Shown piece after piece: positions 1-63,382 of a stretch of DNA of 64,000 nt (the stretch's first letter is position 1; every line of letters begins with the position of its first letter). This DNA is from Tribonema minus (taxonomy: Eukaryota > Sar > Xanthophyceae > Tribonematales > Tribonemataceae). A program made the translations under genes and the position numbers. The stretch spans positions 806,001 to 870,000 of the forward strand of contig JAFCMP010000312.1 in the NCBI GenBank assembly GCA_017506865.1. The letters run 5' to 3'. The notes below the pieces were generated by a model. That model searched no databases and was not told the DNA's origin. It worked only from the letters and a program-made list of their open reading frames with translations.

Positions 1-30
1 GCCTACCCACAGCGCTTCTAGCACGAAGCT
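1..30 (-). repeat. Echo of the exon 6 donor region, first protease
   Basis: Read on the minus strand, this resembles the end of the exon at 355-204: the VLEAL-coding stretch followed by GTAGG in place of GTGGG. It lies downstream of the real donor in the gene and is cut by the window edge. Confidence 0.55.
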
Positions 31-203
31 GAAATTAACCATCATGGCCCAACCTATAGCAATTTAAGCATGCAATGCCATGCATGCAGACAAGCAACGT
101 CACGACTTCAACATCTCAAATCCAAACCCCACACCAAACCCGTACCATCATTTAGCTACCTCAAAGTATCGTTGAGAGTGCGCAATGGTCGAGGTGTCCC
201 CAC

Positions 204-3200
204 CTGCAACGCCTCTAGCACACGCGCGGGAGACAGGCGGCGCCCCGCCTTGGACATCATGAGCGCGACGACACCGGTCGCGTACGGCGCCGACGCGCTA
301 GTGCCGGCGGACCAGGAGTAGTAGTAGCCCAGCCCGTCTGCGTAACAGCACGCGCCTGCACAGATTCGTTGAATGAGCAGGGGTCGGACGTTAGTCACAA
401 TGAGAACAGAGCGCGACAAGGAGGGCTGCTGTGGCGCTCCTGCCTGCACGCCATGCGCTAGTGCTGGCTCAGGGGTGCAGCATTTGGGGCGGAGTGTCAC
501 TTTGAGAATGTCGTGGCAAGAACAGGCACTGTTGCGCTAGTGCCAGTGGACCACCAGTAGTAGTAGCCCAGCCCGTCCGCGTAACAGCATGCTTCTGCAC
601 AGGCGCAGATGCATTGAATGAGCAGAGGTGAAATGTTAGAAGGTCACGATGAGGAGTAACAAGGAGGGCTGCTGTTGCGCTCGTGCCTGCACCCCATGCT
701 CTACATAGCAGTAGCTCAGGGGCGCAGCAAAGGGGGAGTGTCACTCTGAAACTGCCGAGGCAAGAAAAGGCGCTGTTGTACTAGTGCCGGCGGACTAGGA
801 GTAGTAGCCCAGCCCGTCCGCGTAATTGCACGCGCCTGCACAGGCGCAGATGCGCCAGATGAGCAGGGGTGGAATGTTAGAGAGTCACGATGAGGAGTGA
901 CAAGGAGGGCCGCTGTAGCGCTCGTGCCTGCACGTCATGCGCCAAAGGTAGCCCAGGGGTGCAACATAGGGGCGGGCTGAGTGTCTTTTTTTAGCGCAGC
1001 GCGACAAGAAAATACGCTGATGCACTAGTGCCAGCGGAACAGGAGTAGAGTAGCAGCCCAGCCTGTCCGCGTAACAGCAGGCGACTGCGCAGGCGTGGAT
1101 GCATCGAATGGGCGAATGTGGGGGTATTAGGACCGCAGTCATTGCAATGAGTGAACAAAGGGGGGGGGGGGGGGGTTGACTAGGGGGGATGCTGATGTAC
1201 TTGTGCCTACGCACCATGAGTTGTTGATTGCGTAGCCCAGCAATCAGCATAGGGGCACAGAAGCAAGCTCCACTTGAAGTACCACGTCAGCACGCCTCAC
1301 CGAACACCCAGTCGAGGACGGCGCAGGACACGGTCAGCGGCGGCTGGCCGGGCTCTGAGCACTGTGCCGTATTGTGCACTTCAAGTACATATTTACTTGA
1401 AGTTCGCATCAGCACCCCTCACCGAACACCCAGTCGAGGATGGCGCAGGATACGCCTGGCCGGGCGCTGAGCACTGCGCCGTATTGTGCACTTCAAGTAC
1501 ACCTTCACTTGAAGTACCACATCACTTCAAGTACATCTTTACTTGAAGTACCGCGTCAGCACGCCTCACCCAACACCCAGTCGAAGACACGGTCAGCGCC
1601 GGCTGGCCGGGAGCTGAGCACTGCGCAGCATGTGCACGTCAAGTACATATTTACTTGAATTATCGCATCAGCGCGCCTCACCGAACACCCAGTCAAGGAC
1701 GGCGCACGACACAGTCAGCGCTGGCTGGCCGGGAGCTGAGCACTGCGCCGTGTTGTGCTCGAGCGCCGCCCTGGTGTTGCCGCCGGGGGCCGCAAAGTTG
1801 ATGACGGACGAGCCGTAGTTGGAGTACGGCGCGAAGCGGTCGAAGGCGGTGTGGTCGGGGTCCTCGCCCCACAGGTACGGGCCGGTGGCGCTGCGCGGCA
1901 GCGGGTGAGTGCGAGTAGAGTCAAAGTCAGAGGGGAGTCCGCAAGGGCTCTGACGGCGCTGTGATAGACAACAACCTGAAGTCCCAATGCATCAAGACCT
2001 ATTGCAATAAATACAAGAGCTGGTGTGGTCGGGGTCCTCGCCCCGCAGGTACGGGCCGGTGGCGCTGCGCGGCAGAGGGTGAGGGCGAGTAGAGTCAGAA
2101 TCAGAGTCAGACAACCTGAAGTTCCAGTGCGTTAAGGCCTATTGCCACGCTTCGAAGTACATACAACGGGATGCATTTGGCGGCAGCGGCGGTAGTCGTT
2201 GAGACACTTTCAGACTGTCACACGATATGTAGATTGCGTACAGCAAGCTTCAAGTTAGAGCCATTCATCTGGGCTTTTCCGCGTCCTCAGCGAGAATTAA
2301 TAAAAAATACATACAACGGCTGGTAGTGTAGTGGTCGAGGTCCTCGCCCCACAGGTACGGGCCAGGGGCGCTGCACGGAAGCGAGTGAGTGCGAGTAGAG
2401 TCAAAGTCAGAGGGGAGTCCGCAAGGGCTCTGACGGCGCTGTGATAGATGACAACCTGAAGTTCCAATGTGTCAAGGCCTATTGCCATACATACAACGGC
2501 TGGTGTGGTCGGGGTCCTCGCCCCACAGGTACGGGCTGGTGGCGTTGCGCGGTAGAGGGTGAGGGCGAGTCGAGTCACAGTAAAGGGGGAGGTGGTGGTG
2601 CCATGCACAGTGCGTCGTCGGACTGCAGGCAGGGAGTGAGCGCTGCGGCAGGTGCGTCAACGTTTTGTGCCACGTCTTTGGAGGCTGCTGCTGCGTAAAC
2701 GCAGCCGACCTCACCGTAGTCCTGCCCCTGCACTAAGTTACTAACCCTACCCCTAACCCTACCCCTCACCCTGACCCTAACACTAACCCTAGCCCAAACC
2801 CTAACCTTGTGGCAGGCGCATTAGCGGATTCAATCACTTCGGCGGAAGCAGCTGCTGCGTGAACTGAGGCAGCGTCAGTCGACATTCTATTGCAAACCCT
2901 ACCCCAAATCCGAAGCACAACCCTAACCCTAATCCCAGCAAAACTTTCTGCACACAGCGGGGCATCGGAGCATTCTGTTCAAACGGACTTGAGCACCAGT
3001 TTTGGCAGAGGTCAAGCTTGGATTGTGTAAATAGAAAACGGTGAAAATTGCCATCCTGTGCACGAGTGCGACAGCACTGCACATGCTTCAAAGAGAAGCT
3101 CAGCATTTTCTCAAGGCCTACATGCTGTCATGCAACGATTTGGCGCACCTCCAAACCATGACGAATTTGGCGACAATGATTGCACAATACACACACCGGC

Positions 3201-6200
3201 GGATGAAGCAGTTGGCACGTCCGTCGCTGCTGAATTCATTGCACAGTAGCAGTGTGCACTTGCAACATGCTCACAGGCAAGTACATGCTCCCAGGCATGA
3301 ACATACAGACCGAAGCTAGGTGAGGACCTCGCTTTCTCCCATTTGTACTGAGCTCAGATCCTTTCGTGTGCATCCCAAACCGCCACTCTGCAGCACACAA
3401 GCAACTATGGCACAGTACCTGACGGCATTGCCGCCAAGAAGCGATGCAGGGAACAAGTTACATAGAGGTGCAACTGAGCTTCAAGCCGCTACCTACTCTG
3501 CAGGGCATGAGCAATTGTGGTGCAGCCCGCCAGTCTGATACGTGTGTATTGTTGGCACGGTATCCTGACTGTGCTCTGCGAGTCTCGCGCACATGAACAC
3601 TTACCGTGTAAGCTGCTGTGCTGCGATAAAGAAGCAATTACGCTGTACTTTAAAAATGAAGTACCTGACGGCGATGACGCCGGGGGACGACGCGGGGAAC
3701 GTGAAGCGCCCCGCCGGCTTGTCCAAGGTGTAGTGGTCGTTGCCTGCGGAAGCAATGACCGTAACCTTGCCTAACCATAACCCCATAACCCTAAGTGTAT
3801 TGAACACAACGCTCAGCCATGGGACACAAATTTGGCGCACCTGACGGCGATGACACCGGGAATCGACGCGGGGAACGTGAAGCGCCCCGCTGGCTTGTCG
3901 AAGTTGTAGTGGTCGTTGCCAGCGGACGCGATGACGGTGACCTTGGCCGCGGACGCCAGCGCCATTGCGCGCGTCATCACAGCGAGCGCGCTGATGAGGC
4001 TGGGGTTGGTATCGGCCTGCGGCTTCATGCCTGCGCGCGGGGAGCGTCGCAGGGTGCAGTTGAGGTTTACCGAGGCGTGGAGTTGAAGTAAGGTAGAAAA
4101 AGCATGCCATCGCGCGCGTCATCACCGCGAGCGCGCTGATGAGGCTGGTCGGTATCGGCGTGAGGCTTCATGCCTGTACGCGAGGCACGTCACGGAGCGC
4201 AGTTGAAGTCAAGCCAGGTATCGCGCGCGTCATCACGGCAAGCGCGCTGATAAGGCTGGGGCTGGTATCGGCCTGCGGCTTCGTGCCTGCACGCAGGGAG
4301 CGTCGCGGGGTGCAGTTGAGGTTTACTGAGGCGTGGAGTTGAAGTAAGGTAAAAAAAGCATGCCATCGCGCGCATCATCACCGCGAGCGCGCTGATGAGG
4401 CTGGTTGGTATCGGCCTGAGGCTTCATGCCTGCACGCGAGGCACGTCACGGAGCGCAGTTGAAGTCGAGCGCAGTTGAAGTCAAGCCAGGTATCGCGCGC
4501 GTCATCACGGCAAGCGCGCTGATAAGGCTGGGGCTGGTATCGGCCTGCGGCTTTGTGCCTGCACGCGGGGAGCGTCGCGGGGTGCAGTTGAGGTTTACTG
4601 AGGCGTGGAGTTGAAGTGAGGTAGAAAAGCATGCCCTTGAGCGCGTCATCACCGCGAGCGCGCTGTGAGGCTGGGGTTGGTATCGGCCTGCGGCTTCGTG
4701 CCTGCACGCGGGGAGCGTCGCGGGGTGCAGTCGAGGTTGAACAAGGCGGCATGCTCTGGCTTGCGCAAACATCGAGACAATTTGATGGCATCAGCTCTGC
4801 TATCAGTGGTATTGTTGACAACTGCACGTTTGCACTCATGCCATGCTAACAGCAATTGTGCAAGCACCTCCACTGGTACAGTGACAGGCCAGGCAGGCAC
4901 TCACTTGTGGCCTGCATTCAGTGCACACCGACAGCGCTACGTAAAGGCGTGCTCTGGCTTACGCAAGCCTTTCACAAGGAAGTTGATGGCATCAGCTCTG
5001 CTACTAGTGATGTTGTTCATTACCAGAGATATACAGCAGTGCCGTCCTGAGACCTAATGTACGAGAGCTGCAACCTCCAAGCGCAACAGCGAGGCAGACC
5101 TCACACAGACATTGCACGTGCACTGACCTACCTAGAGACATGTTGATAATATCGGCTCCCTTGCTGATGGCGTGCTTGATCGCGGACGCAATGTTTTCCG
5201 TGGTGCCGGTGCCTTTGTCGCTGAGCACCTGGATCAACGGCACAACCATACACACATGCCCATAGACGATGTCAGCGCGGGTTCTCAAAAGACAACAAAG
5301 CAGTCAGCCATGGCTTTCAATACGGCAATACCATTCGCCACAGAGCGATGAATGGCGTATCTATGGTATGCAAGCGCTGCATGACGCGCGCATGTGGCGG
5401 TGGCGGTCACAAGCAGGCTCCAGCAGTTGCTGATCCCAGTCACAGGTACCGCAGATCACCATACCCTCCTTGCATACTGTAGCATACATGACGGTTTGAG
5501 TACGAGCCTCGTCATCATACACACCTCACAGCATGCTGTAAACTATGTACATATTTCTTGAGTACGAGTCTCGTCATCATACACACCTCACAGCATGCTG
5601 TACACTATGTACATATTTCTAGGTACCTCACAGACATGCTATGGACCCCACACCTGAGCATCACCGCCCACCATGCACATCACACGCGCTGGCGAGGCAT
5701 ACTCCAAGTTCATCAGCTGCATCGGCTTGAGCGCTGCCCCGCGTCATCATACACCCCTCACAACATGCTGAACCGTACATACTTCCAAGTTCCTGACGGA
5801 CACGCTATGGACCCCACACCTGAGCATCACCACCACCCTTGCCCAGCACGAGCTCTGGTGAGGCATACTTCAACTGCATGAACTCCTTGGCCTGAGCAAT
5901 GCCCCGAGAGCTTGAAGCCGATCAGAACCGCAGTTTGAACAATCTCCTCGACCACGACAGGTCACTTTGCGCAGCAGGAACTGCGCCTGAGCATCACCAC
6001 TCACCTTGCACAGCACGGCTGCGCAATGGCAGGTCGCGTTGCTTAACATGACTCGATGCTATGAAGTTCCACCTGTTCGAACATGATATAAGAAGTCACC
6101 TTGCGCAGCATGAACTGGGCCTGAGCATCACCACCCACCTCGCACAGCACCAGGTCTGGTCCGGCATACTTCACGCACATGAGCTGCATGGCCTGAGAGC

Positions 6201-7448
6201 TGCCCCGCGAGCTGGAAGCCGATCAAAACCGCAGCATACACTGTATATGGCCACCATTTTAAGCTCGTTGGCGCAGCATGAACTGCGCCTGAGCATCACC
6301 AGCCTCACCTTGCACAACATGAGCTCCGCCTCGGGCGCCACGCCAATCGACCCAGCGCCCCCCAGATCCGCCCCCGCGATGATGGTCGCTGTCCACGTGC
6401 CGTGACTCGAATGACTGCCCGTCGCGCTCAGCTCTGGCTGGTACTGAAGCGTCTCCCCGTCGACGAAGCTCTTGCTCAACTTCAAGTTGACGTTGGGCGC
6501 CAGCGCCGGGTGCTCCAGCCAGAACCCTGGGGCCATGAGGGGTTGTGATGCAACAGGGTGATCACTGATTATATTGGGGGGGGGGACGGGGGGGGGGGGG
6601 GGGGGTAACGTGTGTTTGCAGCACTCATGGTGTGATGGGGGCTTTCTACGTCATGCCACGCTGGCGAGTCATCTGATATATGGGTGGAAGAGCAGCTAAC
6701 AAGGCATGCACACAGGGTTCTGCACAGTTTGTCCTGTTTGTCTTGGACGGCGGCCAAATGGGTGCAAGTGCAATCGACTGATCTGCATGTGAGGGCACGC
6801 GACTGATCAACAGCCATATATGCATACATACGTACCGCTGTCCAGGACTGCCACGCGCACGCGCCGCGGCGCGCCGCCGCCTGCCCCCATCACCCCCTTG
6901 ATCCCCGCCCTCCACGCCTTGGCCACGTGAATCGCCTTGAGACCCCACTGCAGCCGCGTGAACCCCGGGAAAGTGTCGGGCGTGGGGGGTTTCGTGGGGG
7001 GTTCCGTGGCACGGTCCGTGGACCGTTTTGTGGGGGGCGGCGTGTCGCAGTCCGCCACGTTCTTGGAAGTTGAAGTTGAAGTTGACGGCGCGACGACCCG
7101 GGGACCCCGGAACTTCTGGTGGGGGTCCACGAGCTGCCACTCCAGGACGGGCGCCACGGACTCAACGCCGGCGACTTTTGCGAGCTTCTTCGCGAGGCCC
7201 GCCTCTCCCGTCGCGTACGCAACCCCCAGCTCCGATATCACGACGAGGGGCTCCTGAATGACGCCCCCCCCCGCTGCCTCATTCACCAGGCTCGTCATCT
7301 CCGCCACAGCTTCTAGTTGGAAGCCGCCGGCGGGGGCGAGAGCGCCGCTGCTGCCGCCCTCCCTTTCTTTGAAGACGACTTCCCATCGCGTGGCGCCTGT
7401 GCGCAAGGCACTGCTTGCTAGGATGGCCAGGATGGTGGCGAGTCTCAT
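204..7448 (-). CDS. Secreted subtilisin-like serine protease (S8), 3' end beyond window
   Basis: Peptidase family S8 enzyme, predicted to be secreted and to cleave proteins with an Asp/His/Ser triad. Proposed exons on the minus strand: 7448-6836, 6526-6309, 5228-5132, 4030-3841, 1890-1682 and 355-204. All introns are GT-AG, and phases agree across every junction, giving at least 493 residues. A signal peptide (residues 1 to about 20, MRLATILAILASS) is followed by an I9-like propeptide (about 22-100), a Ser/Thr/Pro linker, catalytic Asp203 (VAVLDSG), His246 (SHGTW), oxyanion Asn348 (SAGN) and Ser462 (GTSASAP). The start is the Met that opens the signal peptide; in-frame Mets exist upstream. 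The last exon ends at a likely donor (CAG/GTGGGG). An echo of that exon end lies at 1-30, so the C-terminal exon is off the window. Its divergent neighbour at 9327-17367 is a paralogue with the same exon plan. The family call is firm; exact exon ends are inferred. Confidence 0.85.
310..1250 (-). repeat. Four-unit tandem array around the exon 6 acceptor
   Basis: Units of about 240 bp. Each carries the acceptor and the first codons of exon 6 (the ACCYADGLGYYY region) plus upstream intron. The real unit is near 342; decayed copies begin near 580, 821 and 1071. The copies carry frame breaks and lack the rest of the exon, so only the last one in gene order is coding. The array contains a 16-base G run at 1160-1175. 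Confidence 0.8.
1270..1681 (-). repeat. Echo array of the exon 5 donor, first protease
   Basis: Three decayed copies (near 1283, 1408 and 1553) repeat the last 60-80 bp of exon 5 and the GTGAGG donor that ends the real exon at 1682. The spacers are rich in paired ACTTCAAGTA/TACTTGAAGT motifs. Confidence 0.8.
1891..2600 (-). repeat. Echo array of the exon 5 acceptor, first protease
   Basis: Copies near 2020-2090, 2335-2400 and 2505-2580 repeat the first 50-60 bp of exon 5 (encoding SATGPYLWGEDPDH) with its acceptor and about 100 bp of intron. One unit was split by a SINE-like insertion at 2170-2307; the sister units keep the uninterrupted target. Confidence 0.8.
2158..2319 (+). mobile_element. 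SINE-like retroposon copy 1, with 12-bp target duplication
   Basis: The body at 2170-2307 is closely similar to 20086-20254. It ends in an A-rich tail (AATTAATAAAAAA) and is flanked by the direct repeat TACATACAACGG at 2158-2169 and 2308-2319. The same 12 bp occurs once, uninterrupted, at 2488-2499 in a sister tandem unit, which serves as an empty site. This copy lacks about 20 bp at its 5' end relative to the other, as 5' truncation during target-primed retrotransposition would produce. No protein is encoded and no tRNA-like start was recognised. Confidence 0.75.
2601..3600. other. Intron interior with telomere-like patches
   Basis: Inside the intron between exons 4 and 5 of the first protease. 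It holds degenerate TAACCC patches at about 2735-2805 and 2915-2935, and otherwise nothing recognisable as coding or repeated. Confidence 0.5.
3655..3770 (-). repeat. Echo of the exon 4 donor, first protease
   Basis: About 110 bp repeats the second half of exon 4, including the stretch coding for VTVIASAGNDHY and the AVR end with its donor. It is a nearly intact extra copy of the oxyanion-hole segment downstream of the real exon (4030-3841). Confidence 0.85.
4031..4760 (-). repeat. Echo array of the exon 4 acceptor, first protease
   Basis: Five decayed copies (near 4085-4170, 4205-4290, 4355-4440, 4495-4585 and 4630-4715) of the acceptor plus the first 70-90 bp of exon 4. All encode variants of a Pro-Gln-Ala-Asp-Thr-Asn stretch followed by Ile-Ser-Ala-Leu. 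Two longer units are nearly identical to each other, so the array grew in steps. Confidence 0.85.
4747..5060 (-). repeat. Degenerate tandem pair near the exon 3 donor, first protease
   Basis: Segments at about 4747-4830 and 4948-5030 repeat each other (GCATCAGCTCTGCTA cores) and weakly resemble the end of exon 3 at 5132. This is the most eroded of the echoes listed for this gene. Confidence 0.5.
5500..6308 (-). repeat. Echo array of the exon 2 donor, first protease
   Basis: About six decayed units, each with a CTGAGCATCACC core, a CAGCATGAACTG-like copy of the last exon codons and a donor. The real donor is at 6308/6309. A separate 60-bp unit with a TCGTCATCATACACACCTC core is repeated at about 5505-5625. 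Confidence 0.75.
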
Positions 7449-9326: not shown

Positions 9327-12300
9327 ATGTGGAGGCTGGCCAGTTTGGCGTGCTTGGTGCTACAAGCCTGCACAGCGCCACTTGCTGTTCTGGGCTCGGA
9401 TCAGGACGCGCAGCGGTGGCGCATAGTGCTCGACGAGAGACCCGCAGCAGCAAGGCAGGGCTTGGCTCGTGTCAAGGAGGTTCTGGCCACAGACAAGGCC
9501 CAGGTGCAGCACGGCGACTTGCTGTCAGCGTTGCCTGAACTGGGGCTAGCGTATGCAACGGCAACACCAGCGCTGGCACGCAGGCTAGCCAAGATCGAAG
9601 GCGTGGACTCGGTGACTCCCTCCAAGAGCGGGCAGTACCTGCAGCCTCCTTCTCGCCGACCGCAGCAGCTGGAGGAAGGGTCGGCGGCGGCGGCGGCGGC
9701 GCCGGCACCAGATTCCGGGGGCGATGGGAGTGTCCTGGCAGCTTCAGACGGGGACGCACAGGTGGCGCTTCAGAGAGACAGCAGCCAGCACAAACAGCGC
9801 AACAGACACGACCAGCCCAAGAAGCACAAAAAACAGCAGCAGGGCAAGAAGGACAAGAAGGATAAGCACCTTCACACAGGGCCCTATCCCGGGCTCACGG
9901 GCTTGCAGTGGGGACTGAAAGCCATCGACGCGAACAAGGCGTGGAAAGCGGGACTGAGGGGGATGATGGGGGAAGGGGAGAACCGGCGGCCGGTGCGCGT
10001 GGCAGTGCTCGATCAAGGTACCTAACCTAACAAATGCTACAGTATTTGTTTTTTGCAGTACAAAATCCACACGTAGGCGCGCGGGAGGGGATAAGGGGAT
10101 CACGAGGGAGGGAAACTCACTTCTCGATCAAAGTACTTAACAAATGCAGCATGGAAATGAATTAAACTATTGTAAAGCTCTAGGGGACAAGGCGTGGTTA
10201 GCCGCACATGCCTTCCACCAACAACGTGGTCGCCGCTGCTCGGCAATTGGATGTTTGTTGTTGCAGTACAGAACGCACACATAGGCACGCGCGAGGGGAT
10301 CAGAGGGGATCACGAGGGACTGAGAAGCCCGTCGGCGGGTGCACTTGGCAGTGACAGATCAAGCAGTTTGTGACGCAGATTTCAACACCTCATTTAGTTC
10401 AAATCGAGATTGGTGATGTCATGATCCAGCCGCACCGGGCAGAAGCTGTTGGTGCACACTGACTGGATGCACATTCACTCCCACAGGTCGACGGAGGTTC
10501 AGAGGGGACGCTGCACGAGGAGTCGAGTTAGGGCTAGGGTTAGGGTTAGCTGCACTGCTCAGCCCGGGCGCACAGCTGTCCGCACTGCGCTCAGCTGACG
10601 TGGACACACTGGCTTTGCAAGTGGCGTCATGCCATAATGTAACGGTACCCTTAGCAGAAGCGCCTTAAGATAGAAGCTGGAGCCATATTAGTGGCAATTC
10701 CAGGGTGTGCCTAAAGTAGTGATCAAGTGGCCCACTTTGAGGGTGTAATGACGGCACCACGATTGCTTCAGACGCGTTCAACGATACGCAGGCACATGGC
10801 AGCAGCGCTCAGCAAGCGTTGGTGTTCAACGTTCAAGGTGCCGATCTGCTCTCTACGGCCATGTAGCAGTGTACTTGTCTTCAGACACACGCACATTGTT
10901 AGCAGGCCACTGCCCCTGTAGACAGGCTGGAGAGCCCCATCTTGACTTCAACTTCAACCTCAGCGCGTCGTGCTTCCGTGGACTTGTGAAGTCTGTACAG
11001 TCCAGTCGAGTCACTGTGGCTGTAGCGCTGAACCGATCACTATTGCTATAGAGCTATGATTTTTATAAATAGATGACAGCGAAGACGTGCAGCAGCATGA
11101 AGGCCACCAAACCTACATGATCTGTGCATTACTTTTGGCAATCTGATGGGCAAACCTCAACGGCAGGCTACATCCCCTTCGTGCCGAACTTTGATGATAT
11201 CGCCTCTGCGGCGCTTAACTTCCAGGCTTATGACAACATTGAGCGGAGCTGAAGCTTTCACGGTGCACCTCACAAGACCATCCAACCTCAACTGCACACA
11301 CGCAACTTCAATTCTGTGTGCGCAGGCTTCTCTCAGCACCCGACGCTCGTGGTGAACGCCAAAACATGGATGTTACCCAGTCAAAACTTATCATGTGTAA
11401 CCTCCTTTGTTTGTGCGTGCAGAGATCTCAGCCCGTCAACCTCAACTTTCTATGTGCACCTTGAATTTCTCTGCGCGCAGGCCTCTACCCGCAGCACCCG
11501 ATGCTCGCAGCAAATGTCACCATTACATCTCAACCCGCCAACCTCAATTTGTGATGTGCAACTTCAGTCCTCTGCACGCAGGCTTCTACCCGCAGCACCC
11601 GATGCTCGCAGCAAATGTCACCATATGCATCTCAGCCAGTCAACCTCAATTTCTCATGTACAGTACAACTTCAATTGCGTGTGCAGGCTTCTACCCGCAG
11701 CACCCGACGCTCGCGGCGAACGTCAACACATAGATATTAGCCAGTCAACCTCAACTTATGATGTTCAACATCAGGATCACAGCCAGTTAAACCCTCAACT
11801 TCTGATGTGAAACTTCAATGCTGTGCGCGCAGGCTTCTACCCGCAGCACCCGACGCTCGCGGCGAACGTCAACATGGACCTGAGCAAGAGCTTTGTCAAG
11901 GGCGAGGACTTGCGGTGGCGGCCCAAACGCGCGCAGTACAACGCCTTCAGCCACGGCACGTGGACGGCAGGCATCATCGCGGGCGTAGACAGGGGCGGCG
12001 CGGGGACCACAGGGGTGGCGCCGGAGGCGGAGCTGCTGCTGATCAAGGTGACGCTCCTTCTTCTTTGTTGAGCGTTGTCGCAGTGGGGCCGGAGGCTGTT
12101 TGTGTATGGGTTTGAGCGTTGCTGCTGCTGATCAAGGTGATGCTCTCCTTTGTGTCTGGGTCGAGCACTGCCGTAGTCACGCCAGGGGCTGTTTGTGTCT
12201 GGGTTGAGCATTGTGGTAGTGGCGCCAGAGGCTGAGGTCCTGCTGTTTCAGGTGATGCTCCTCCTTCTTCGCTGAGTGTTGTTGCAGTGGCGCTGCTCTG

Positions 12301-20070: not shown

Positions 20071-20074
20071 GATG

Positions 20075-20265
20075 GTACAAATAGGAGGACGTAGGGGAGG
20101 ATCCCGAGATGCCATTTGGCGGCGGCGGCGTTTGAGTGGTTGTCGTTGAGACACTTTCAGACTGTCACACGACATGTAGATTCCGTACAGCAAGCTTCAA
20201 GTTAGATGCCATTCATCTGGGCTTGTTCGCGCCCTGAGCGAGAATGAATAAAAAGTACAAATTGG
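20075..20265 (+). mobile_element. SINE-like retroposon copy 2, with 11-bp target duplication
   Basis: The body at 20086-20254 is flanked by GTACAAATAGG (20075-20085) and GTACAAATTGG (20255-20265), 10 of 11 bases matching. It is longer at the 5' end than the copy at 2170-2307 and shares the internal GTTGAGACACTTTCAGACTG segment, the CATTCATCTGGGC segment and the AATAAAAA tail. No open reading frame. The differing flanks of the two copies show independent insertions. Confidence 0.75.
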
Positions 20266-39824: not shown

Positions 39825-40116
39825 GGCTCCCTGGTGCGAGTGTGGTGCTGCTTCTGCTGCTGTGCTCGCAACTTGACGGCCTGGACACCACGCGCGCTAT
39901 GAGAGAGTTTTGAATCACCACCAAGTGTTGGTCGGTCACTTCACGTTCTGAAGTTCCTTCTTAACGACTGAACTTCAACAACTTTTGCGTGTGTGCAGCG
40001 TTTACACATGTGTACAGGTGTGCGGCGGGAGAGCCAAGCAGCAGTTGACGCCAACAGGCTCCGCCGTCTAACTTCAGCCATGTAGGCAACAGCACCGGTG
40101 CAGCTCAACGGGAACC
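39825..40116. promoter_or_regulatory. Shared divergent promoter, J-protein and BRAP2 homologue
   Basis: Only 292 bp separate two start codons facing away from each other, so both promoters must lie here or overlap the 5' ends. GAAGTTCCTTC and ACTGAACTTC form a small inverted pair near 39950-39975. No TATA-like box was recognised. Extent is inferred from the gene models. Confidence 0.5.
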
Positions 40117-49100: not shown

Positions 49101-52100
49101 CTGTGAATCCGCATGAATGAACTTTGTATCCATGGCATGCAGCAACAGCGGACGCCGCATGCTCTGGCGTGACAACACCCCAATCAGCAGTACATGCGGT
49201 GCGCTCAGAGCGAAAGCTGCCACAAATGGCCGGAGACCCCTTGTATCTCCCTGCATCGCAACGAATCACCCACTGGCACTCATTTGCCGCTCCGTACCGC
49301 AGGGAGGAGAACGACGACTGCGGATAGGTCCAACGCTAACCCTCAACCTAACCCTATGTTTGTTGAAGCATGCTGTACCCCAGCGCTCAGAGCGGAAGCT
49401 GCCACAGATGTGCGGAGACCCCTTGCATGAGTCCCTGCTCTCAGAGCGAGAGCTTCCACAAATGGCCGGAGACCCCTTGCATGAGTCACTCCAGCGTATC
49501 TCCCTGCATCGCAACGCATTATCCACTGGTGCCCACTTGCTGCTCTTTACCGTAGGGAGGAGGATGATGACTGTGGCTAGGTTTTACCCTCACCCTAACC
49601 CTAACCCTATGTTGAAAGGACAGCAATCATATTCTTGAAGCGCTTCTGCCGCCGTGCACCGCCCCTGCCCCAAGAACATCCAGTGTGCCCGCATGCGCTG
49701 CAGCGCAAGAGTCAGCGCACATTCGTGTAAGCGCCTGCATCAAAACAGTTCACCCATGGATCCCCCATTTACCCATTTGCTGCTGCGTACTGCAGGGAGG
49801 AGGACGATGACTGCGGTCAGGCCGAACCCTAACCCTCAACCTAACCCTATGTTGAAAGGACGGCGATCATATTCTTGAAGCGCTTGTGCCGCCGTGCGCA
49901 GCCCCTGCCCCCGAGTTGTCGCCGCCTGCATCGCAACGAATCACCTGCTGGCACGTCTCTACTGGTTTGCTGCGACAGGGAGGAGGATGACGACTGCGGG
50001 TCCACGGAGTGCAGCGACGGTGGCCGCCGCAAGCTCTGGGCCGTGGCGCGCGAGTACGACACGCTGCTGGCCACGCAGCTGGACGAGCAGCAGGTAACTG
50101 CCGTGAGGTGTAACTGCCACAACTGCCCTGCAGAATTGCCGCCACAGGTCTGGGTCAAGCATATGATTGTTGCATTGGCGCAAACGACTTGCACGCACTC
50201 TTGCACTTCAATTCATGATTGGAAGCTAAAGATTGAAGTGTGTGATCACGTGGCGCTGCTCGGCTGTGGCGCGCGAGTACGACACGCTGCTGGCCACGCA
50301 GCTTGACGAGCAGCAGTCAACTGCCGTGCCGTGAGGTGCAACTGCCACGTGGAACTGCCCATCACAGGTTTCAGTCAGGCACATTATCGTTTGAGTAGAA
50401 GTTGAAGGGTTGTTCTTTAACCACGTTGCGCTGCTCCGCGCAAGCTTTGGGCCGTGGGGTGCGAGTACTGACACGCTGCTGGCCACGCAGCTGGACGAGC
50501 AGCAGGTAACTGCCAGATGTAACTGCCATGCGTAACTGCCCACCGCAGGTTCGGGTATGTCCCTTATTCTCCTATACATTGCTGTACGATTCCCCTTGCT
50601 CTCACATACCAACATACCCCCTACATACCCCTCACTTTCCGAGGGGCTCGACAGGCGTACCATCCTCACATGTACCTGCACCCCAATTTTCTCAAATACC
50701 TAGTCTACATACCTCCCTTATTTCTTGAACACTGCAGAGTACATACCTCTCCTGCTTCCGTCGGGCATTTTCCTATGTATGGCTACAATCCCCTTGGTCT
50801 CTCGCCTTACAGGCATAACCCCTCATTCTCCAGTCAGGACCACTATGAGGCAGTTATCGGCTGCAGAGAGCTTGGGCTCTCAGATACCAACCCTCCTCCC
50901 TCATTTTCTCACAAACACACTCCTCATTTTCTTTCAGGACCACTAAGAGTATCTCTCATGATCATATACCCGACATTCCCCTATAAAGGCTACAATCCTC
51001 TTGGCCTCTTACTATCCCCCCGATTTCCTTACAAGCATACTCGTCATTCTCTCTCAAGACCACTATGAGGCGCTCATCAGTCGCATCATCGCAGAGGAGG
51101 CTCAGAGAACTTGGTCTCTCACACACCAACATACCCCCTCGTTTCTTACATACATACCCCTAACTAACTCGCTTTCTCAGGACCACTACGAGGCGCTCAT
51201 CAGCCGCATCATTGCAGAGGAGGCTCAGCAGAACGCCGCGGAGGCTCAGTTCACGCATGAGGACCACCTGCAGGCAAGATTTGTGTAGAAGTATTTATGA
51301 TGAAAACGAATCAACAGCCAATACTTATTCGCATACAAACACACATACCTGCGACTACCACCACTACGCCGCCGGCTCTTGCTACCACAGTGTCGGACAC
51401 CAACTACTTCTTCAATGCATTCAATTGTTTGTAGTGAATGAATGTGCATCTGAGGATCAATGTGTATCCGTTTGCAGGTGTCACAATCGCGTGAGGGCGC
51501 CCTCACAATCATGCCCTAAAAAAGCGGCGCGACACACTGCTTGGCAAGGACACAGTTCAACAACACAACTTGAAGTATTACCACTTATCTAAACAAACAA
51601 GTGCTGTATATTTCCATTCAATGTGTATACGCGTGCAGGTGTCACAATTACGAGAGGACGTTCAAGCCCTAGAGGAACGACGCAATGCGCTGCTTGGCGA
51701 GCTGCAAACTTCAACAAAAATACTTCATCAACACAACACTGAAGGATCGCCAACAACTGTGAATGATTGTTTATTCACTTTTGATGATCAATGTGCAGGT
51801 ATCACAATTGCGGGAGGACGTCCATACGCTAGAAGAACGACGCGATGCGCTGCTTAGTGAACTGCGCTCCGCTCAGGAGGAGTGCCGCCTGCTGCACGCA
51901 GGGAACTCCACGCTCATGCACGAGCAACGCGAAGCCAAGGTATGCATGTCACAATACCTACGCTACCCCTGTTGTGCTCATACCTACTTACCCCTATTGT
52001 ATACGAGCAGCGCGAGGCCAAGGTGTGCATGCCACAATGCCTACCGTACCTACCTGCCCCGACATGTTACCATACATACATACCCTCACTGCACTGCCTG

Positions 52101-54971: not shown

Positions 54972-57000
54972 CGCGCTTGGCGCACACTCCTTTACTTGAG
55001 TATAATTCGGCGGTACATGCTCTGTGCCTGGACTGAGTGTACCTTCCCCCACCCGCCTCTGTGCCAACATGACTGTTGAAGAAACAATATTTCTGCTGGT
55101 GGTCGGGGAGGTGCAGCTGCGTTGCCGCAAGTACACACAGCTTGGGTTGCTCAAGTGGAGTGGCAGCTGGCCGTGTCCATGTGGGGCACGTAATGTACTT
55201 CAAGTTGAAGTACAGGCCGCAGGCAGGCAGGCGTGCGCAGCGCTCGGGTGGCAGCGTGGTCGTGCTTGGCGCACCACGTTTGCGCACTTTCAAGAGCAAA
55301 GTATAGTATTGCAAGCGCCGCTGCAGAGCTGCTACGACGCTGTTGACGTCAGTGCGTCGGGCCGGTTTCGGTGCCCCTGCGTCCGCTGCTGCAACAAGCA
55401 CTACGGGGGCGGCTGCCAGTCAGCAGAGCTGGTGTGCCTACTGCGTGGATCATAAAGAGCGCAGAGGTGCGTGGGGGCACAAGCGCCCAGCGCCTGCAGC
55501 AGCGGCGGCGGCAGCGGCGGCGGCGGCGGCGGCAGCGGCAGCGGCGGCGGCGGCAGCGCGGCGGCGGCGGCGGCAGCGGCAGCGGCGGCGGCGGCAGCGG
55601 CGGCGGCAGCTGCGGTGATGGCAGCGACGGCGCACAGCGCGCTGCGTTTGCAGGGTTAGGGTCAGGCTGCCTCCAGCAGCACGCGCGCATGGATGCAGCA
55701 ATGCACCTCAATTTTGTAATGGATGAATGCGGCTTGCAGTTGCGCTGTTGCTCACGTTACCCACCAGCAAAGCTGTATGGTGAAAAGCGCTTGTGCTTAT
55801 GTGTATGGGGTGGCGATGGCAACTGCAGGCGTTGCGTGCAGCTGCATGGCAGACACGATGCTGCTACAGTTTCATCTGGCCGCTGGCTGAAGCATTCATG
55901 TGCGGGAAGAGCAGCGGCAGAAAATGCAGCATGCCGCAACCATGCGTGCAGCAAATCAGGGCAAGCATACATGAAGATGATGCACAGCAATTGCACGCAG
56001 AACTTATTCTTGATGCTTGAACACAAGGCGAACGTGTCAACACTCAAGCAGGCCACCATAAACTATGGAACCAGGCTGAGCACAGCGAGCAGCAGCAGCG
56101 CGCAGCGTGCAGAGAACAGCTCAGTGTCCCAAAGTTTGTCACCATAATGTTGTCTAGGGTACTGTCTTGATGTGATGTGTGCAGACTGCTGTAAACTCAA
56201 GGTCGTCTGCTAGGTGTGCTCGCGAGGGCTTCTAAAGGTGCACACGCGCCCAGGCGGTGCAGCCTTTGGCAGAGATGTATGTTGTCGCGCTGCTGCTGCG
56301 GGCCCACTGCCGCTGCAATGTCGACCCCTGTTGTCTCCGCCGAATGCGCCAGAAGGCAACAGGCTGCCGCTGCCATGCGCCGGCAGTCCATGTGCCTCTC
56401 TCGCCACACAGCTGCTTACATGCGTTTCCATGTAGCAAGACTGTCGCTGCGCGCCGGTTCGCGCACTTGCTACAACCGCATTCAGCAGATGTGTTTGTCA
56501 TGGCTGCTGACGAAGCAGTGCTCATTGGCTGCGGGAAATGGAGCCATCTGGCCCGACCACCCAGTCTCCTGGTTCCGATATCTGCGTGCGCAACAAACAG
56601 ACAGCGCGCTTAGAAGCCATCTACAGGCGCTGATTGAAAGCTTTCAATGATCACCATGCGCGATGGTCGCTATCTTTTGATAAAATACCTTACAAACCAA
56701 CTTTTTATCATCATACTTGAAGTAGCTTTTTGCACTTGCCACTCTTCGTGGTAACAGCTGGCGCAGCAGCCATGCGCGCACCTGCATGCTGGACACAGCA
56801 GCGACTTGCGACAGATCAATGACTGCACCCGCAGCGCATGCGCACGTACGCAGTGTGCCCAGCCAAAGTGACCATTGCCGTCACCGTGCCAACCGGAAAT
56901 GCACCCTCCGCCATTGCACTGAAGGGGCCAGCTCTCTTTGCCAGTTCCTCTTGTCCCCACCTATGTACCACTTCTCACCGATGCAGGTGGGTTTCCTGTT
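54972..57000. other. Convergent 3' region; GCG repeat; no gene assigned
   Basis: Lies between the stop of the BRAP2 homologue and the last recognised pyrophosphorylase exon. 55495-55620 is a dense GGC/GCA triplet repeat. The terminal exon of the pyrophosphorylase should lie in this stretch or just above it but was not recognised. Other open frames have no motif. Confidence 0.45.
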
Positions 57001-57009
57001 GCCGCACTG

Positions 57010-57970
57010 TGTTGAGTGGGGCACTGACCTCAATCACAGTTGCGGCCTTCTTACTGAGCGCAAATCTGCGCACCCTGTCCACCTCCGGTTCACACAGCAG
57101 CGTCATTTGCAAACATCTGTTGAGTCTCACCCCGCCAATCTTTGACGATGCAGGTGGTCTTATGAGCCCAATTTTTTCTTATTTTGAGTGGGAGCTAACC
57201 TCAATCACGGTCGCCGCCGTCTTGTCGAGCACGAAGCCACGAACCTTGTCCGCCTCCGGCACGCCCTCTGCCATTGCACTGAGGGCAGCTAGCTCTCTTT
57301 GCCAGTTTCTGCTCTCGCCCCCATGTACTTCTGAAGTACCAATCTTCAACTATGCAGCAGGCGTTCATTGGTCGAATTTCTGTTTTTTGAGCAGGCGCAG
57401 ACCTCAATCACGGTTGCGGCCTTTTTGTCAAGCACAAAGCCGCGCACCCTGTCCACCTCCGGCACAACCTCCGCTGTTTGCCACGACGGCAGCTACAGCA
57501 GCTTTGTTTGTCAACATCTGTTGCGTCCCACCCCGCCAGTCGTCAACGATGCAGCTGGCTTTCATGAGCCGATTGTCTTGTTTTGAGCGGGCACTGGCCT
57601 TAATTGCAAATGCTGCGCTCTTGCCGAGCACGCATCTGCACCCCGTGTCCACCTCCGGCAAGACCTGCGCCATTTGCAACGAGGGCAGCTGGCACGTATT
57701 ACCCATGTACTTGTGAAGTACCAATCTTCAATGATGCAGCTGGCACGTATTAGCCAATTGTTTGCTTTGAGTGGGCACTGACCTCAGTCACGGTTGCAGC
57801 CTTTTTGTCGAGCACGAATCCACAAACCCTGTCAGCCTCCAACACGCCCTCCGCCATTGCACTGGGCGCAGCCAGCTCTCTTTGCCAGTTTCTCTTGTCC
57901 CACCTATGTACCAATTATCAACGGTGCAGGTGGCTTGCCTTTTGTCGCAGTGTTTTGAATGGGCACTGAC
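57010..57970 (-). repeat. Echo array of the last recognised pyrophosphorylase donor
   Basis: Five units of about 190-210 bp (near 57010-57080, 57185-57290, 57390-57470, 57590-57660 and 57770-57860) copy the last 60-90 bp of the exon ending at 57971 (EGVPEVDRVRGFVLDKRAAT) and its donor. They also share intron text with CTCTCTTTGCCAGTT. Confidence 0.88.
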
Positions 57971-60900
57971 CTCAATCACGGTTGCCGCCCTCTTGTCGAG
58001 CACGAATCCGCGAACCCTGTCCACCTCTGGCACGCCCTCTGCAGGCAGCGGCGCCGGGTGCCAGCCCTCGTTGCGCACGGTCAAGCCGTGGACCGTCACG
58101 CGTGCGTCTTCACAGGCCTTGATGACTAGCGCACCTGTAAACGGCATTGCGGAAGGCGGGGGGGCGGACGTTGGATGTGGCGGGCAACAGCACCTGATGG
58201 CGCACAGCGATGGCATGCGTATGCAGAAACACCACTTCTCAACACAACCTGCACACAGAGCTTTCAAGAAGAGGCTCGCACTTCTGTGCTGAGCGACACC
58301 AATCCTCAGAAGCACCTCGCACCACTAGCTTCAACAAATACTTTGTGCGGACCGGCTCGTATGACTTGATGCCTGTGCATTTGCATGTGTGTTGAGGTTA
58401 CGTACTTCGAAGTACAAGTCCTCGTTGTTCAATTAGTTGAGTATTTTATCATCTTAACGGTGTGATGCGCCTCACCATCCAGCACACCTCCCCACCACCT
58501 TCCACGAACACTTCGTGATGAGTAGCTGTAAAAAAAAAAAAATTCTTCAAGTACTTGAAGTATGTACGTTGCGCCTCACCATCGAGGTCCAGTGACTCCA
58601 CCGTAATGCTGGACCCCTCCAGCACGAGTGTGGAAGTTAATTGATTGCGCGCAGCAATGGCACTGCGCGTACGGCTTGAATGCTTGTGCGTCCTTGTTCT
58701 TGCAGTATTTTTCAAAGTATGATAAATCCTTACGGTGCGATGGGCCTCTCCATCGAGGTCCAAGGACTCCACCGTGATGCCGGGCCCTTCCAGCACGAGA
58801 GCGGATGTGGTAGAAATATGTTGAGGTTGCATGTAGAACCTTTTCGTCAAGTATCTGAAGCATTTGTCTTTGTTGAAGCAGTGTGATGCGCCTCACCATC
58901 GAGGTCCAATGACTCCACCGTGATACCAGGTCCCTCTAGCACAAGAGCGGATGTGGTAGACACCTTGACATCCTTGCCAAACTTCCGCCTGCAGTGCGGC
59001 AGCAGTAGATCGGAGACGTTGAGGACCTCGTGAAAAACCTAGTGGCGCAAGTGATGTCATCGCTGCAGTCAAATCAAGCGCGTCCGCAGCAAACATCCAC
59101 ATGACTCCGGCATTGCTTCCTTGCAGCCGTTGCGTTCATGTAGGTATCTGGTGTTCGAAGCATTGCAGACCCTGGCCTCATGTCAAAAGGGTACGCTTCT
59201 GCTGCATGGGATGAGCGTCTTGCATTCACACCAGTTGATGTGATCAGAAGATGGCTGAGAGCTTGTTCAAACAATCATGTCACGCACATGCAGCCAATGT
59301 TTAAGGATAAAGTGGTCATCAATGGCCACTGAGACCCAAAGGAAGCAGGAAGCCCCCTCTGTCGCGGACACCTTGACACATACAGGGTTGGGGTTAGGGT
59401 TTCAAATCAAGTGTGTCCTTGCCAAACTTCCGCCTTAGGGTTAGGGTTAGGGGGTAGGGTTAGGTGCGACAGCACCAGAACGGACAAGCAGCAACACACT
59501 GTCATGAGCACAATGCTTTGAAAGGATTTGAAAAGTTTCACACCTCACCTGTTGTCGTCTGCCGTGACGGCAAACGTCGATGACAGCACCAGCAGCGGGC
59601 CACACTACGCTCACGGATCAGACACCAGCCCCGCATTTGAAGGACGCAAGCATGTACGTTTTTTGCCTCACCACTTGCTTCTGTCTCATGATCATCCTGT
59701 CCTTTGCACAGTCTGCTTTGCTCGCTGTAATGCTTGGGAGCCAGCGTGCATGATGCGTGATTCGTGATCATGAACACCGGCGATTATTATCGGGTTTAAA
59801 GTGAAGTGGTTCCACAACTTGACCCTACCTGATATCATCCGTCATGATAGCGAATGACCGGTTATAGCACCAGCATCGGTCCACGCTACTTACACTCACG
59901 ATTCAGACATCAGCCCAGTAGCCCAGCATTTTGAAATACGTAAGCAAGATGTGACACCTTTGCGTTGGAATGAAATGCTTCGGCTGCAACAACCTGACCC
60001 TACCTGATGTCGTCCGTCGTGATGGCAAACGACGGTGACAGCACCAGCAGCGGTCCAAGGTCTAGCGGCACGCCCTCAAGTACTTTAACTTCAACACCAG
60101 CTTCAATTTTAACCCACCTGATGGCATGGCGAATGACGGCGACAGCACCAGCAGCGGTCCAACGTCTAGCGGCACGCCCTCAAGTACCTAAACTTCAACA
60201 TTTTCTTCAACTGCAATATACCTGATGTCATTCGTCGTGATGGCGAACGACGGCGACAGCACCAGCAGCGGTCCAAGGTCTAGCGGCACGCCCTCAAACT
60301 CAATGTGCCGTGGCGCGCCGAAGGCGGCGCCCGCCGTCGCCGCAACGCGCCTCACATTCTGTGCGTAGAACTCCGCTTCCGCGCTGCAAGACAACAGGCA
60401 GATCGAGAGGCGGCGTGGTGATTGACTTCACATTTGAAAGACGGCTTTGGGTCATGCATGTCAGCTACATATCTTGCTTTTGTGTCATTGCTGGTCATAT
60501 GCAACAGAAGTACAAGTACTTGAAAGGATAAGTTGAACGCGGCGCCCGCCGTCGCAACAATGCGCCTCACATTCTGCCCGTACGTACAACTCTGCATCTG
60601 CACTGCGATGCACAGGCACAAAGGGGGACGTATAGGGTGACGTATAGTGTGCATGGGCAGCGCAGGATCCCTGGAAGTGTTTTCAAAAACCACGTTGTCG
60701 AAAATTGGGGAACAGGCCTCGAGGTGCGGGCGTCGTAACGTGTACTTTTTGCGAAGAGTCCAAGGGACAAAAGCAGCACGTGCATAGCTTCTTGACTGGT
60801 ACCACCCAGCAGGTGAAGGCACGTAGCTGCAGCAGAGCACCAGCTGGTAGGCTGGCATAGAAAGCAGTCAGACGAGACAACCGCGACACATCCGCAACTG

Positions 60901-63382
60901 AGGGGGTGGGTGCGATTTGGTAGCATCGCAGCCCCACGGAGTGCAGTGGCAATTGCAGACGCACTTGTTGATGATCAGGTGACATCCAAGTGCCTGCTCG
61001 CGGAGGTGGGGGGTACAGCGCCTACAACACCTCATGTGGGTCCTGATGCTCGCTGAACTTCAACCCTCAAGTGCTTTAAACTACGGCGCTTCAGGGTGAG
61101 TCATAACACTGCCGAGCGCCTGCCGGATGAGCGCCTGGGCATTTCACTTGCGGTGTTGGGGGGTGCCCCGCTGCCCCATAGGCTTAACTCAACAAGTTGA
61201 TTGTAGATGATACGGCAGCCCCACATTGCTGCGGAACGAGCGACACCTCCTTCACTCACCTGCTTGCGGCATTATGATCACTCAATGAGGTAGTAAATCT
61301 AATGCAAACCACCAAGACTTCATTGTGCAACATTGTGCAACACAGTAGTAAATTTGATACAATCCACCAAGACTTCATTGTGCAGCACACCAGCTTTAAC
61401 ATCAGAGCAAGATTAACCGGCGGTTACGGGCCTGCATTGAACACAATAGCTTTGCTTGCAGGCCCGTAGGCTTTGCCTACAAGTATTATTGTAAGTAAGA
61501 CAGTACCCCACATGGCTGCGGAACGAGCGACAAATCATTCACTCACCTGCTTGCAGTGTTGGGGGGTACCCCGCTGGGGGCGCCTGCGGCGCCTGCCTCC
61601 AGACTGTTCTTGGCCGGGCTGCGGCGGCGCGACAGATAGCGATGAAGACATGAATGCATTAATGAATGCACCAACGGCGTGCACCATGTCCTTCATGCGC
61701 TTTTCAGGTGCACGCAGCTCCAGAAACACAAACGCTTAGACCTTGAACTTCAAGCTGAGTGCGCCAGACCGTGGTTGCTCGTGCTGATTTCGAATTCTGT
61801 GAAGTGAGGAGGCAAACTTCTAGATTGCGGCTTAAAACATCAAACCCAAGCACTACTTGTTGCGTTTTGTTGCGTTACACGGAGCCGCTTCAAGATATGC
61901 GTAGCACGGTCCTGGGTCCTGTTGCTGGCTGACCTTGCGTCAAGAGAAGAAGCCCTTGCATCAAGAGAAGAAGCCATCTAGATCCGGAGCAGCATCTCAA
62001 GTGATGACTGTTCCGGGGGGGCTGTTGATGTATAGCACGATTGCAAGCGTGGAATGAAAGATGTTTAAACAACCGGAAGATGATGTTCAATACAGAAAGA
62101 AGCGAGGGACACGGCGCTGGTGACTTAGAAAGTCACTTAGACTTTGAAAGTCACGTAGACTTAGAAAGTCACTTAGAAAGTCACCAGCGTCGTGTCCCTC
62201 GCTTCTTTCTGTATTGAACATCATCTTCCGGTTGCTTAAACATCTTTCATTCCACGCTTGCAATCGTGCTATACATCAACAGCCCCCCCGGAACAGTCAT
62301 CACTTGAGATGCTGCTCCGGATCTAGATGGCTTCTTCTCTTGATGCAATGGCTTCTTCTCTTGACGCAAGGTCAGCCGATGTCATGCTGGCCCTACTTGT
62401 ATGCGAGACTGACGCCAGGAAAGGCGGAAGGAGGGGGGAGGACGGGGGCGGGGAATGGGAGGCGCAAAGGGCTGTGCAGCAGGTCCGGCGCTGGGTTGCA
62501 GACCGGATACCCGGCTCCTTGCTCGCATCAGTGATAGGGACAAGAGATGTACGAAGCACACCTTGCCAATGACTACAGTACATAGACGAGGAAGGAGCAT
62601 GGCAAACTCAAACAGCTGTAAGGCTGCGGACATTAGATGCGCTGGCTCCGCGTGCTCTTTGTTCAGGCCCCAGGTAGACGTCGAGGATAATCACAGAGTC
62701 CACAGACTGTTCCTTACAGGACAATCGCTGAACAGCGGATCGGCAACACACGCTGGGACTAGCGCTTCAAAGGCATGCCCCTGGCAATCGATAAGGGAAT
62801 GCATGAAGCTCACAGGTGATCTGAACATTTACTCCAGTCATGTAGTAAGACGGGCAAGGTTCACTCCGACAGGGTGCATTTGCCGCTTGCACGAGGTTCG
62901 ACACTTGAGTATTTTGCAAGAACTCATTCATTTGTTCATGCAACACTCATCGCCATTAATGCAGTCCTCACGTTCAAACACTGACCCCTGACTCCCGCCC
63001 TGGGGTTTTTCAGCAAAACAATGAGCAAACGTTATAAACAGCACTTGTCTGTGGCTGCTTTGCCGCATGCCCACCTGAACGATAGCCATTTCTGTAGGCT
63101 GTCACCATTACCTTGGCGCAGTACCTTGGTACTGATGGGCTGAGCGCTGGTGTAAAGGTACACCCTTTGCACTCGAGGCGGCCATGCGCAGCCGCTGCGC
63201 CTGTGAACCCTGTCCGAGAATGGCAAAGCTCTATCACAAATTGGCGGACGCATGATCATGTTTCTTGATGTATGGACAGCTTTACTGCACGCCCACCTGA
63301 ATGACAGCCATTTCTCCAGACTGGTGAAGCCAATGGTGAAGTCTGATTGGTCGAGCTCCTGCGCCATCAGCTTGGGGAAGTC
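57971..63382 (-). CDS. UDP-sugar pyrophosphorylase, internal exons (both ends missing)
   Basis: Converts a sugar 1-phosphate and UTP to UDP-sugar and pyrophosphate in the cytosol. Five exons on the minus strand, all in phase: 63382-63297, 61618-61547, 60383-60222, 58988-58897 and 58134-57971. The spliced text reads DFPKLMAQELD...IGFTSLEKWLSF / SPAKNSLEAGAAGAPSGVPP... / AEAEFYAQNVRRVAA... / KFGKDVKVSTTSALVLEG... / GALVIKACEDARVTVHGL. This matches the plant enzyme order: QDYPK, VGFTxxxxWLxxxPVKN, a short loop, EMAIYxANxLILRK, then the C-terminal beta-helix ending in an RGF-like segment. The N-terminal nucleotidyltransferase exons lie beyond 64000, and the last exon was not found. A 451-bp foldback sits in the first intron seen here. 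Confidence 0.7.
58465..58825 (-). repeat. Echo array of the fourth pyrophosphorylase exon donor
   Basis: Copies near 58466-58500, 58565-58640 and 58735-58820 of the exon end (STTSALVLEGPGITVESLDLDG) with its GTGAGG donor, below the real end at 58897. The longest covers about 85 bp. Confidence 0.88.
59035..59535. other. Intron interior with telomere-like block
   Basis: GGGTTAGGG blocks at about 59385-59402 and 59435-59465, between two fragments that copy CCTTGCCAAACTTCCGCCT from the start of the exon at 58988-58897. Nothing else recognised. Confidence 0.6.
59540..60185 (-). repeat. Echo array of the third pyrophosphorylase exon donor
   Basis: Four copies (about 59545-59610, 59825-59890, 60000-60075 and 60120-60182) of the exon end (VPLDLGPLLVLSPSFAIT) with donor. 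Similarity to the real exon (60222 end) rises with proximity, as expected for stepwise tandem growth. Confidence 0.88.
60535..60605 (-). repeat. Echo of the third pyrophosphorylase exon acceptor
   Basis: GCGGCGCCCGCCGTCGCAAC through CATTCTGCCCGTACG copies the first 60 bp of the exon starting at 60383 (NVRRVAATAGAAF). Confidence 0.8.
61150..61545 (-). repeat. Echoes of the second pyrophosphorylase exon donor, with a tandem pair
   Basis: GCGGTGTTGGGGGGTGCCCC near 61157 and CTCACCTGCTTGCGGCATTA near 61255 copy the end of the exon at 61618-61547 and its donor. At 61285-61395 a CCACCAAGACTTCATTGTGC unit occurs twice. Confidence 0.75.
61927..62377. mobile_element. 451-bp foldback element with 200-bp inverted arms
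   Basis: Left arm 61927-62126 and right arm 62178-62377 are reverse complements over about 200 bp with about three mismatches. The 51-bp centre is itself made of inverted GACTT/AAGTC units (CTTAGAAAGTCACTTAGA). No flanking target duplication was found. It lies in an intron of the pyrophosphorylase gene. Each arm can be read as a 60-100 codon frame, probably incidental. Confidence 0.8.
63065..63115 (-). repeat. Echo of the first seen pyrophosphorylase exon donor
   Basis: GCCCACCTGAACGATAGCCA copies, with few changes, the exon end and GTGGGC donor at 63297/63296 (EKWLSF region). Confidence 0.8.

Follow-up and report, generated by a model that had tools for sequence, protein, structure and literature searches.

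Splice junctions in a 64,000-nucleotide stretch of the Tribonema minus genome (the window, in what follows) are accompanied by direct repeats that carry the junction itself into the adjoining intron. In two paralogous subtilase genes these copies, hereafter echoes, span junctions far more often than uniformly placed duplication would allow, decay as neutral DNA, and arose independently in each gene. We consider it probable that they stem from local copying at the DNA level, biased to exon-intron junctions.

The two genes, subA and subB, are arranged head to head:

156..7448, minus strand: subA, six-exon subtilase gene running from 7448 to 156; exons 7448-6836, 6526-6309, 5228-5132, 4030-3841, 1890-1682 and 355-156
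9327..17367, plus strand: subB, six-exon subtilase gene, paralogue of subA; exons 9327-10017, 11833-12047, 13291-13396, 14536-14718, 16222-16434 and 17120-17367

Their ten introns were set by splice signals and reading frame, giving 20 predicted junctions, and the intron positions of the two genes correspond, with an offset of 1 nt in intron 4. The spliced products keep an open reading frame up to the stop and their proteins share 48% identity (225 of 466 aligned residues). The Peptidase_S8 profile matches each of them as one domain (158.8 bits for subA and 136.7 for subB), and the best single piece of the unspliced window scores 43.1 bits. The protein is thus complete without any echo copy.

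Self-comparison of the whole window returned 158 direct-repeat pairs, with copies less than 6 kb apart in 125 and farther apart in 33 (mostly GC-rich triplet repeats), and 10 inverted pairs. The window also holds a palindromic stretch of about 450 bp at 61927-62377, 93% identical to its own reverse complement, and an 81-bp self-complementary stretch at 27201-27281 (94%). We then searched the two subtilase genes for repeats without reference to the gene models (word size 7, E 1e-3, low-complexity pairs removed). The search yielded 37 and 29 pairs in the two genes, falling into 8 and 7 local direct-repeat arrays. Overall, 12 of these 15 arrays span a junction (D2, A4, A5, D5 and A6 of subA; A2, D2, D3, A4, D4, A5 and D5 of subB, where D denotes donors and A acceptors), two touch one (D4 of subA, D1 of subB), and a single array lies in an intron interior. 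Similarly, 14 of the 20 exon ends matched their own intron side better than all 60 shuffles. No echo was found at A3 of either gene, nor at D1, A2 and D3 of subA. The junction echoes on which the original prediction rested are therefore real, and its claim that they feed intron growth agrees with the 6,512 of 12,151 intron bases of subA and subB that lie inside copies of junction arrays. The features in the two genes are as follows:

288..1113, minus strand: echo array at acceptor A6 of subA
1272..1758, minus strand: echo array at donor D5 of subA, with three echoes
1848..2591, minus strand: echo array at acceptor A5 of subA, with three echoes and a common spacer, interrupted by a dispersed repeat
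3663..3945, minus strand: single echo of the end of exon 4 at D4 of subA, touching the junction, with 105 bp of exon ungapped
3961..4748, minus strand: echo array at acceptor A4 of subA, with five echoes
4748..5017, minus strand: the sole interior-only repeat pair in subA and subB
5507..6329, minus strand: echo array at donor D2 of subA, with an exon part of 11-20 bp, carried by the intron part
9959..10363, plus strand: weak echo touching donor D1 of subB, from the repeat search and shuffle test
11286..11878, plus strand: echo array at acceptor A2 of subB, with four echoes
12015..12334, plus strand: echo array at donor D2 of subB
13350..13956, plus strand: echo array at donor D3 of subB
14112..14603, plus strand: echo array at acceptor A4 of subB
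14651..15442, plus strand: echo array at donor D4 of subB, with five head-to-tail echoes whose units hold TTAGGG-like repeats
15796..16316, plus strand: echo array at acceptor A5 of subB
16371..16823, plus strand: echo array at donor D5 of subB, with three echoes
16994..17136, plus strand: weak low-complexity echo at acceptor A6 of subB, its AG lost

The last of these was seen in the self-comparison and the junction alignment and was removed from the blind search by its low-complexity filter. The dispersed repeat within the A5 array of subA (2167-2311) recurs at 20105-20259; it measures 155 bp, with 86% identity.

To characterize the copies, we aligned each true junction to its intron and recovered 41 copies at 14 junctions. 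Their exon parts are 90.1% identical to the source (1852/2055) and their intron parts 85.8% (1316/1533), the latter counted over alignable stretches only, which favours the less diverged ones. Differences at codon positions 1, 2 and 3 number 42, 42 and 119 of about 685 each, and are not independent, because one exon change recurs across all copies of an array. Expressed as divergence, this amounts to 6.1% at positions 1 and 2 and 17.4% at position 3, compared with 14.2% in the intron part. The intron value corresponds to two free lineages of about 7% each, and the value at positions 1 and 2 to a nearly frozen exon facing a free copy, indicating that the copies drift as neutral DNA and that the exons change mostly at silent sites. 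Divergence at third positions exceeds a rough neutral expectation of about 11-13%, which tells against the explanation we prefer; high mutability at these positions and some past constraint are the candidate reasons.

The copies also date the process. All 36 copies whose exon part reaches 30 bp resemble their own exon more closely than that of the paralogue, so the echoes post-date the split of subA and subB, and the two genes gained them independently. On the evidence of this comparison, A4, D4, A5, D5 and A6 acquired echoes separately in both genes; D2 probably did so as well, the exon parts at D2 of subA being too short for comparison with the paralogue. The overlap between the marked junctions of subA and subB is not significant by itself (estimated at about 0.1).

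Could the echoes be functional, retained by selection as alternative or reserve splice sites and exon ends? We regard this as unlikely. The splice dinucleotide (GT or AG) is kept in 35 of the 39 copies that reach it, and the echo of exon 4 of subA, ungapped over its 105 bp, differs at 1, 2 and 9 sites by codon position, as selection would have it. However, a neutral divergence of 7% per lineage would leave about 33 of the 39 dinucleotides, codon positions 1 and 2 diverge at about the per-lineage rate of the intron, and the exon parts of the copies contain 68 gap positions.

The arrangement of the copies bears on how they were made. Described as tandem in the original prediction, they lie head to tail, the form that the Rogers/AGGT model would predict, at six of the 14 junctions (A2, D2 and D4 of subB; A4, D5 and A6 of subA), whereas at the other eight (D3, A4, A5, D5 and A6 of subB; D2, D4 and A5 of subA) a hand-measured spacer of 35-122 bp separates the junction from its nearest copy. 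At six of these eight (D3, A4, A5 and D5 of subB; D2 and A5 of subA), the spacer of the nearest pair resembles neither flank beyond shuffles (z < 2). With copy identities of 85-94%, a plain tandem duplicate should still be visible there. The spacer at A5 of subA recurs between copies, suggesting that copying probably began with a spaced copy and that amplification of the unit followed. In addition, donor copies at D3 and D5 of subB, at D4 of subA and at one donor of a myosin gene (see below) stop 2-9 bp beyond the splice site; random breakpoints do not favour such ends, which count against the explanation we prefer.

Spaced copies and donor copies ending so close to the splice site would both fit an RNA template, with pieces of unspliced pre-mRNA from the vicinity of the splice site, such as those held by the splicing machinery, being copied into the gene again close by. 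The focus on junctions and the nearly constant orientation of local copies point the same way. Still, the six junctions with head-to-tail units that extend well into the intron speak against an RNA template, and DNA slippage accounts more simply for the local placement; we regard this route, too, as unlikely.

Under another account, tandem duplication strikes uniformly and survives only in introns or across one junction, where the spliced product stays intact; conservation of the exon would be expected to prolong the time for which junction copies can be recognised. We confronted this account with a placement null, in which each array is a segment placed evenly and segments that are confined to an exon or contain an entire one are rejected. 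The number of spanning arrays expected among 15 was 2.74 with the shortest period as segment length (P=2.7e-7), 3.98 with the median period (P=2.1e-5) and 3.23 with the longest aligned length (P=1.1e-6), compared with the 12 seen. Likewise, 14 of the 15 arrays touch a junction, compared with 3.3-4.5 expected under even placement. Thus, when held against a uniform rate, as the original prediction had itself proposed, junction overlap proved well in excess (12 spanning arrays versus 2.7-4.0).

The excess does not reflect exon conservation. When exons were masked before the search, 15 arrays were again obtained (9 and 6), and nine of them still began or ended 0-5 bp from a junction, which argues against conservation as the cause. 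We also conducted a forward simulation in which duplication was uniform, junction copies were tolerated, and sequence was subject to neutral decay, indels and deletion, with 24 runs at each of five settings. The mean spanning fractions were 0.26, 0.27, 0.31, 0.30 and 0.37, and no ten-intron set exceeded 0.60, compared with 0.80 observed; interior arrays numbered 10-14 per ten introns in the simulation, compared with one observed. The masked search and the simulation together rule out an exon-conservation bias as the source of the excess, and render uniform duplication with tolerance quite improbable. Tolerance, to which the original prediction had attributed the pattern, lifts junctions only to the level of neutral intron interiors; junctions exceed that level, and tolerance alone therefore does not explain the excess. 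Because the per-base number of duplications in neutral interiors should be no lower, the choice lies between duplications that begin close to junctions and a preference for junction copies once made. The neutral-like decay of the copies argues against the latter, and we therefore hold to junction-targeted local copying.

As a control for splice junctions, we examined stop codons: a repeat spans four of the 25 usable boundaries among 33 CDS ends, which counts against the explanation we prefer. In these four, however, the tail of 32-59 codons may conceal an intron; they were sorted after the result had been seen, so that the control is suggestive only. Separately, TTAGGG or CCCTAA occurs 66 times in the window (1.03 per kb), compared with 28.6 in base shuffles; TTAGGG-like repeats are dense at 14723-15531, in the D4 array of subB, and occur elsewhere as well. 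We rejected them as the driver of the arrays, since they occur at 0.29 per kb in other loci and are present in just some arrays.

Beyond the subtilases, Pfam places DnaJ and zf-UBP in the window, and a PDB search places an exon resembling type III polyketide synthase. Reading ten stretches with a partial junction map, we found junction copies in the zf-UBP gene (which has an apparent resemblance to BRAP2), in the DnaJ gene and in an unnamed minus-strand gene on the right-hand side, for which a Pfam scan of frame-wide translations gave no match. The features recorded in these genes are:

21827..22152, minus strand: repeat pair near an exon start, by eye, in the type III polyketide synthase-like gene
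35862..36385, minus strand: three copies at the acceptor of the exon following the J-domain start, DnaJ gene
36892..37604, minus strand: copies of the donor end of the J-domain exon, DnaJ gene
46123..46871, plus strand: one exon copied at both ends, zf-UBP gene
49200..50528, plus strand: acceptor- and donor-side copies at a downstream exon, by eye, zf-UBP gene
51049..51865, plus strand: acceptor-side copies at two further downstream exons, by eye, zf-UBP gene
56904..58042, minus strand: donor-side copies, unnamed gene
58555..58960, minus strand: three copies of one exon end, unnamed gene

A zf-UBP exon has an apparent GC donor at 46412-46413 (ACTACAG|GCGAGT), which is repeated in its echo. Elsewhere in the window, 33314-33415 and 39723-39827 are 78% identical over 108 bp and lie in minus-strand reading frames that, by eye, resemble plastid-targeting starts.

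To assess the pattern in the rest of the genome (158 Mb in 554 contigs, with 92 LHC-type antenna matches), we collected 27 introns totalling 17,954 bp, each lying between two exon matches of LHC (23) or subtilase (4) genes. Their splice sites were predicted by a scoring matrix, and in some a gap in the profile hints at an unseen exon. The introns were drawn from exon hit lists, though after the repeats of 60 loci had been listed, so the sample is not fully blind; the regions of four introns (L068, L070, L071, L072) were fetched in knowledge of their repeats. Ten arrays were found, of which six span a junction (2.5 expected, P=0.017) and nine are no more than 15 bp away from one (3.1 expected, P=1.2e-4). 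Once weakly scored splice sites were removed, three of the six remaining arrays spanned a junction (1.5 expected, P=0.17) and all six lay within 15 bp (1.8 expected). Excluding the four introns above left four of six spanning (1.6 expected, P=0.038) and five of six within 15 bp (2.0 expected, P=0.014). The nine introns fetched without knowledge of repeats (L074-L081) contained one array in all, which spans a donor. In a myosin gene picked solely from an exon list, four introns contain four arrays, none of them more than 15 bp from a predicted junction and two spanning one; half of its eight junctions are marked, in a raw count that includes a first intron whose acceptor is ambiguous. Some contigs also carry short fragments of plastid psaA (L082, L083), probably plastid DNA insertions, for which photosystem I chain A of 9m4f is the top match or close to it; one remnant equals that chain over 41 residues, after five differing. 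Taken with the LHC-type matches, these fragments point to a photosynthetic, red-plastid alga, probably an ochrophyte; the antenna chains of 9m4f carry the name XLH, which may stand for a xanthophyte.

Echoes were thus more frequent in the window than outside it. The original prediction had counted about 40 of 63 junctions as marked, and placed echoes in every gene. Its rate is similar to that of subA and subB (14/20) and does not extend to the outside sample, where nine of 54 junctions carry an echo, so that the window is unusually rich; with 45 of those 54 and six of the 20 subtilase junctions free of echoes, "every gene" was too strong.

Junction-biased local copying could proceed as follows. 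About 50-250 bp spanning a donor or acceptor would be copied, in the same orientation, into the adjoining intron, with the new copy landing head-to-tail or as a fragment some 35-120 bp off. The splice site beside the exon, presumably the one spliced, would stay in use, so that the copy becomes intronic and leaves the protein as it was. Further rounds of copying, together with unequal exchange between copies, would build arrays of up to six units, whose copies would afterwards decay as neutral DNA; the net effect would be introns that lengthen from their ends. This order of events is our reconstruction. We infer that the excess is mutational, arising perhaps from breaks or fork stalls near junctions that are repaired by slippage or template switching. 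Candidate triggers are DNA breaks or fork stalling where exon meets intron, or a process linked to transcription and splicing. A bolder proposal, which we find doubtful, is that splice junctions themselves, via co-transcriptional splicing or bound RNA, mark DNA for local re-copying, so that introns would grow outward from their splice sites and keep a fossil record of past exon ends.

The lengthening of introns without transposons is poorly understood, and here the individual units of growth can be seen; they are anchored at splice sites to a degree that neutral duplication does not allow, and arose separately in paralogues. Re-copying across junctions points to a little-noticed route of intron growth and allows a test of whether the sites of DNA duplication are set by transcription or splicing. 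Every echo preserves, in frozen form, an earlier state of an exon end. Because their splice sites are intact and their exon fragments open, echoes are also a warning for gene prediction.

Finally, we compared the echoes with known systems. Exon sequence inside introns could be a relic of intron gain, through duplication of an AGGT-bearing exon segment (the Rogers model) or through introner transposons, but this is very improbable: consistent with the original prediction's separation of echoes from AGGT-based gain, 5' intron parts are unlike the next exon and 3' parts unlike the previous one (one of 20 comparisons lay beyond all shuffles, in a stretch holding an echo), intron positions are common to the paralogues and echoes are not, and a genome search with window positions 1-2000, among the best candidates scored, revealed no dispersed introner-like family. 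That query, comprising two subA arrays and part of a third, matched itself, three adjoining places and, elsewhere, three short stretches overlapping exon 5. Introner elements are a bulk source of intron sequence in algae and form dispersed families, unlike the echoes examined, which are private to their own junction. Polymerase-theta end joining provides another parallel, as its templated insertions paste copies of nearby DNA at a break together with intervening sequence; these copies are usually much shorter than echoes, and we know of no junction bias described for them. Our literature search, which covered few subscription papers, found no description of the junction-echo pattern. Two reported cases come near it. 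In the potato RdRp gene, a tandem duplication within the gene likewise carries splice signals along, and the duplicate copied the intron-exon structure (PMC4974935); there a new intron was made, whereas in our case introns already present at shared positions lengthen, the copies turn into intron sequence, and similarity joins an exon end to its own intron side. In Lipomyces [D] stwintrons, duplication of the donor element inside an existing intron has been proposed and attributed to break repair (PMC7138796), which resembles our donor echoes; those copies are of 4-7 nt and are proposed to become working sites, whereas the echoes described here measure about 50-250 bp, are repeated, look neutral and occur at many junctions.
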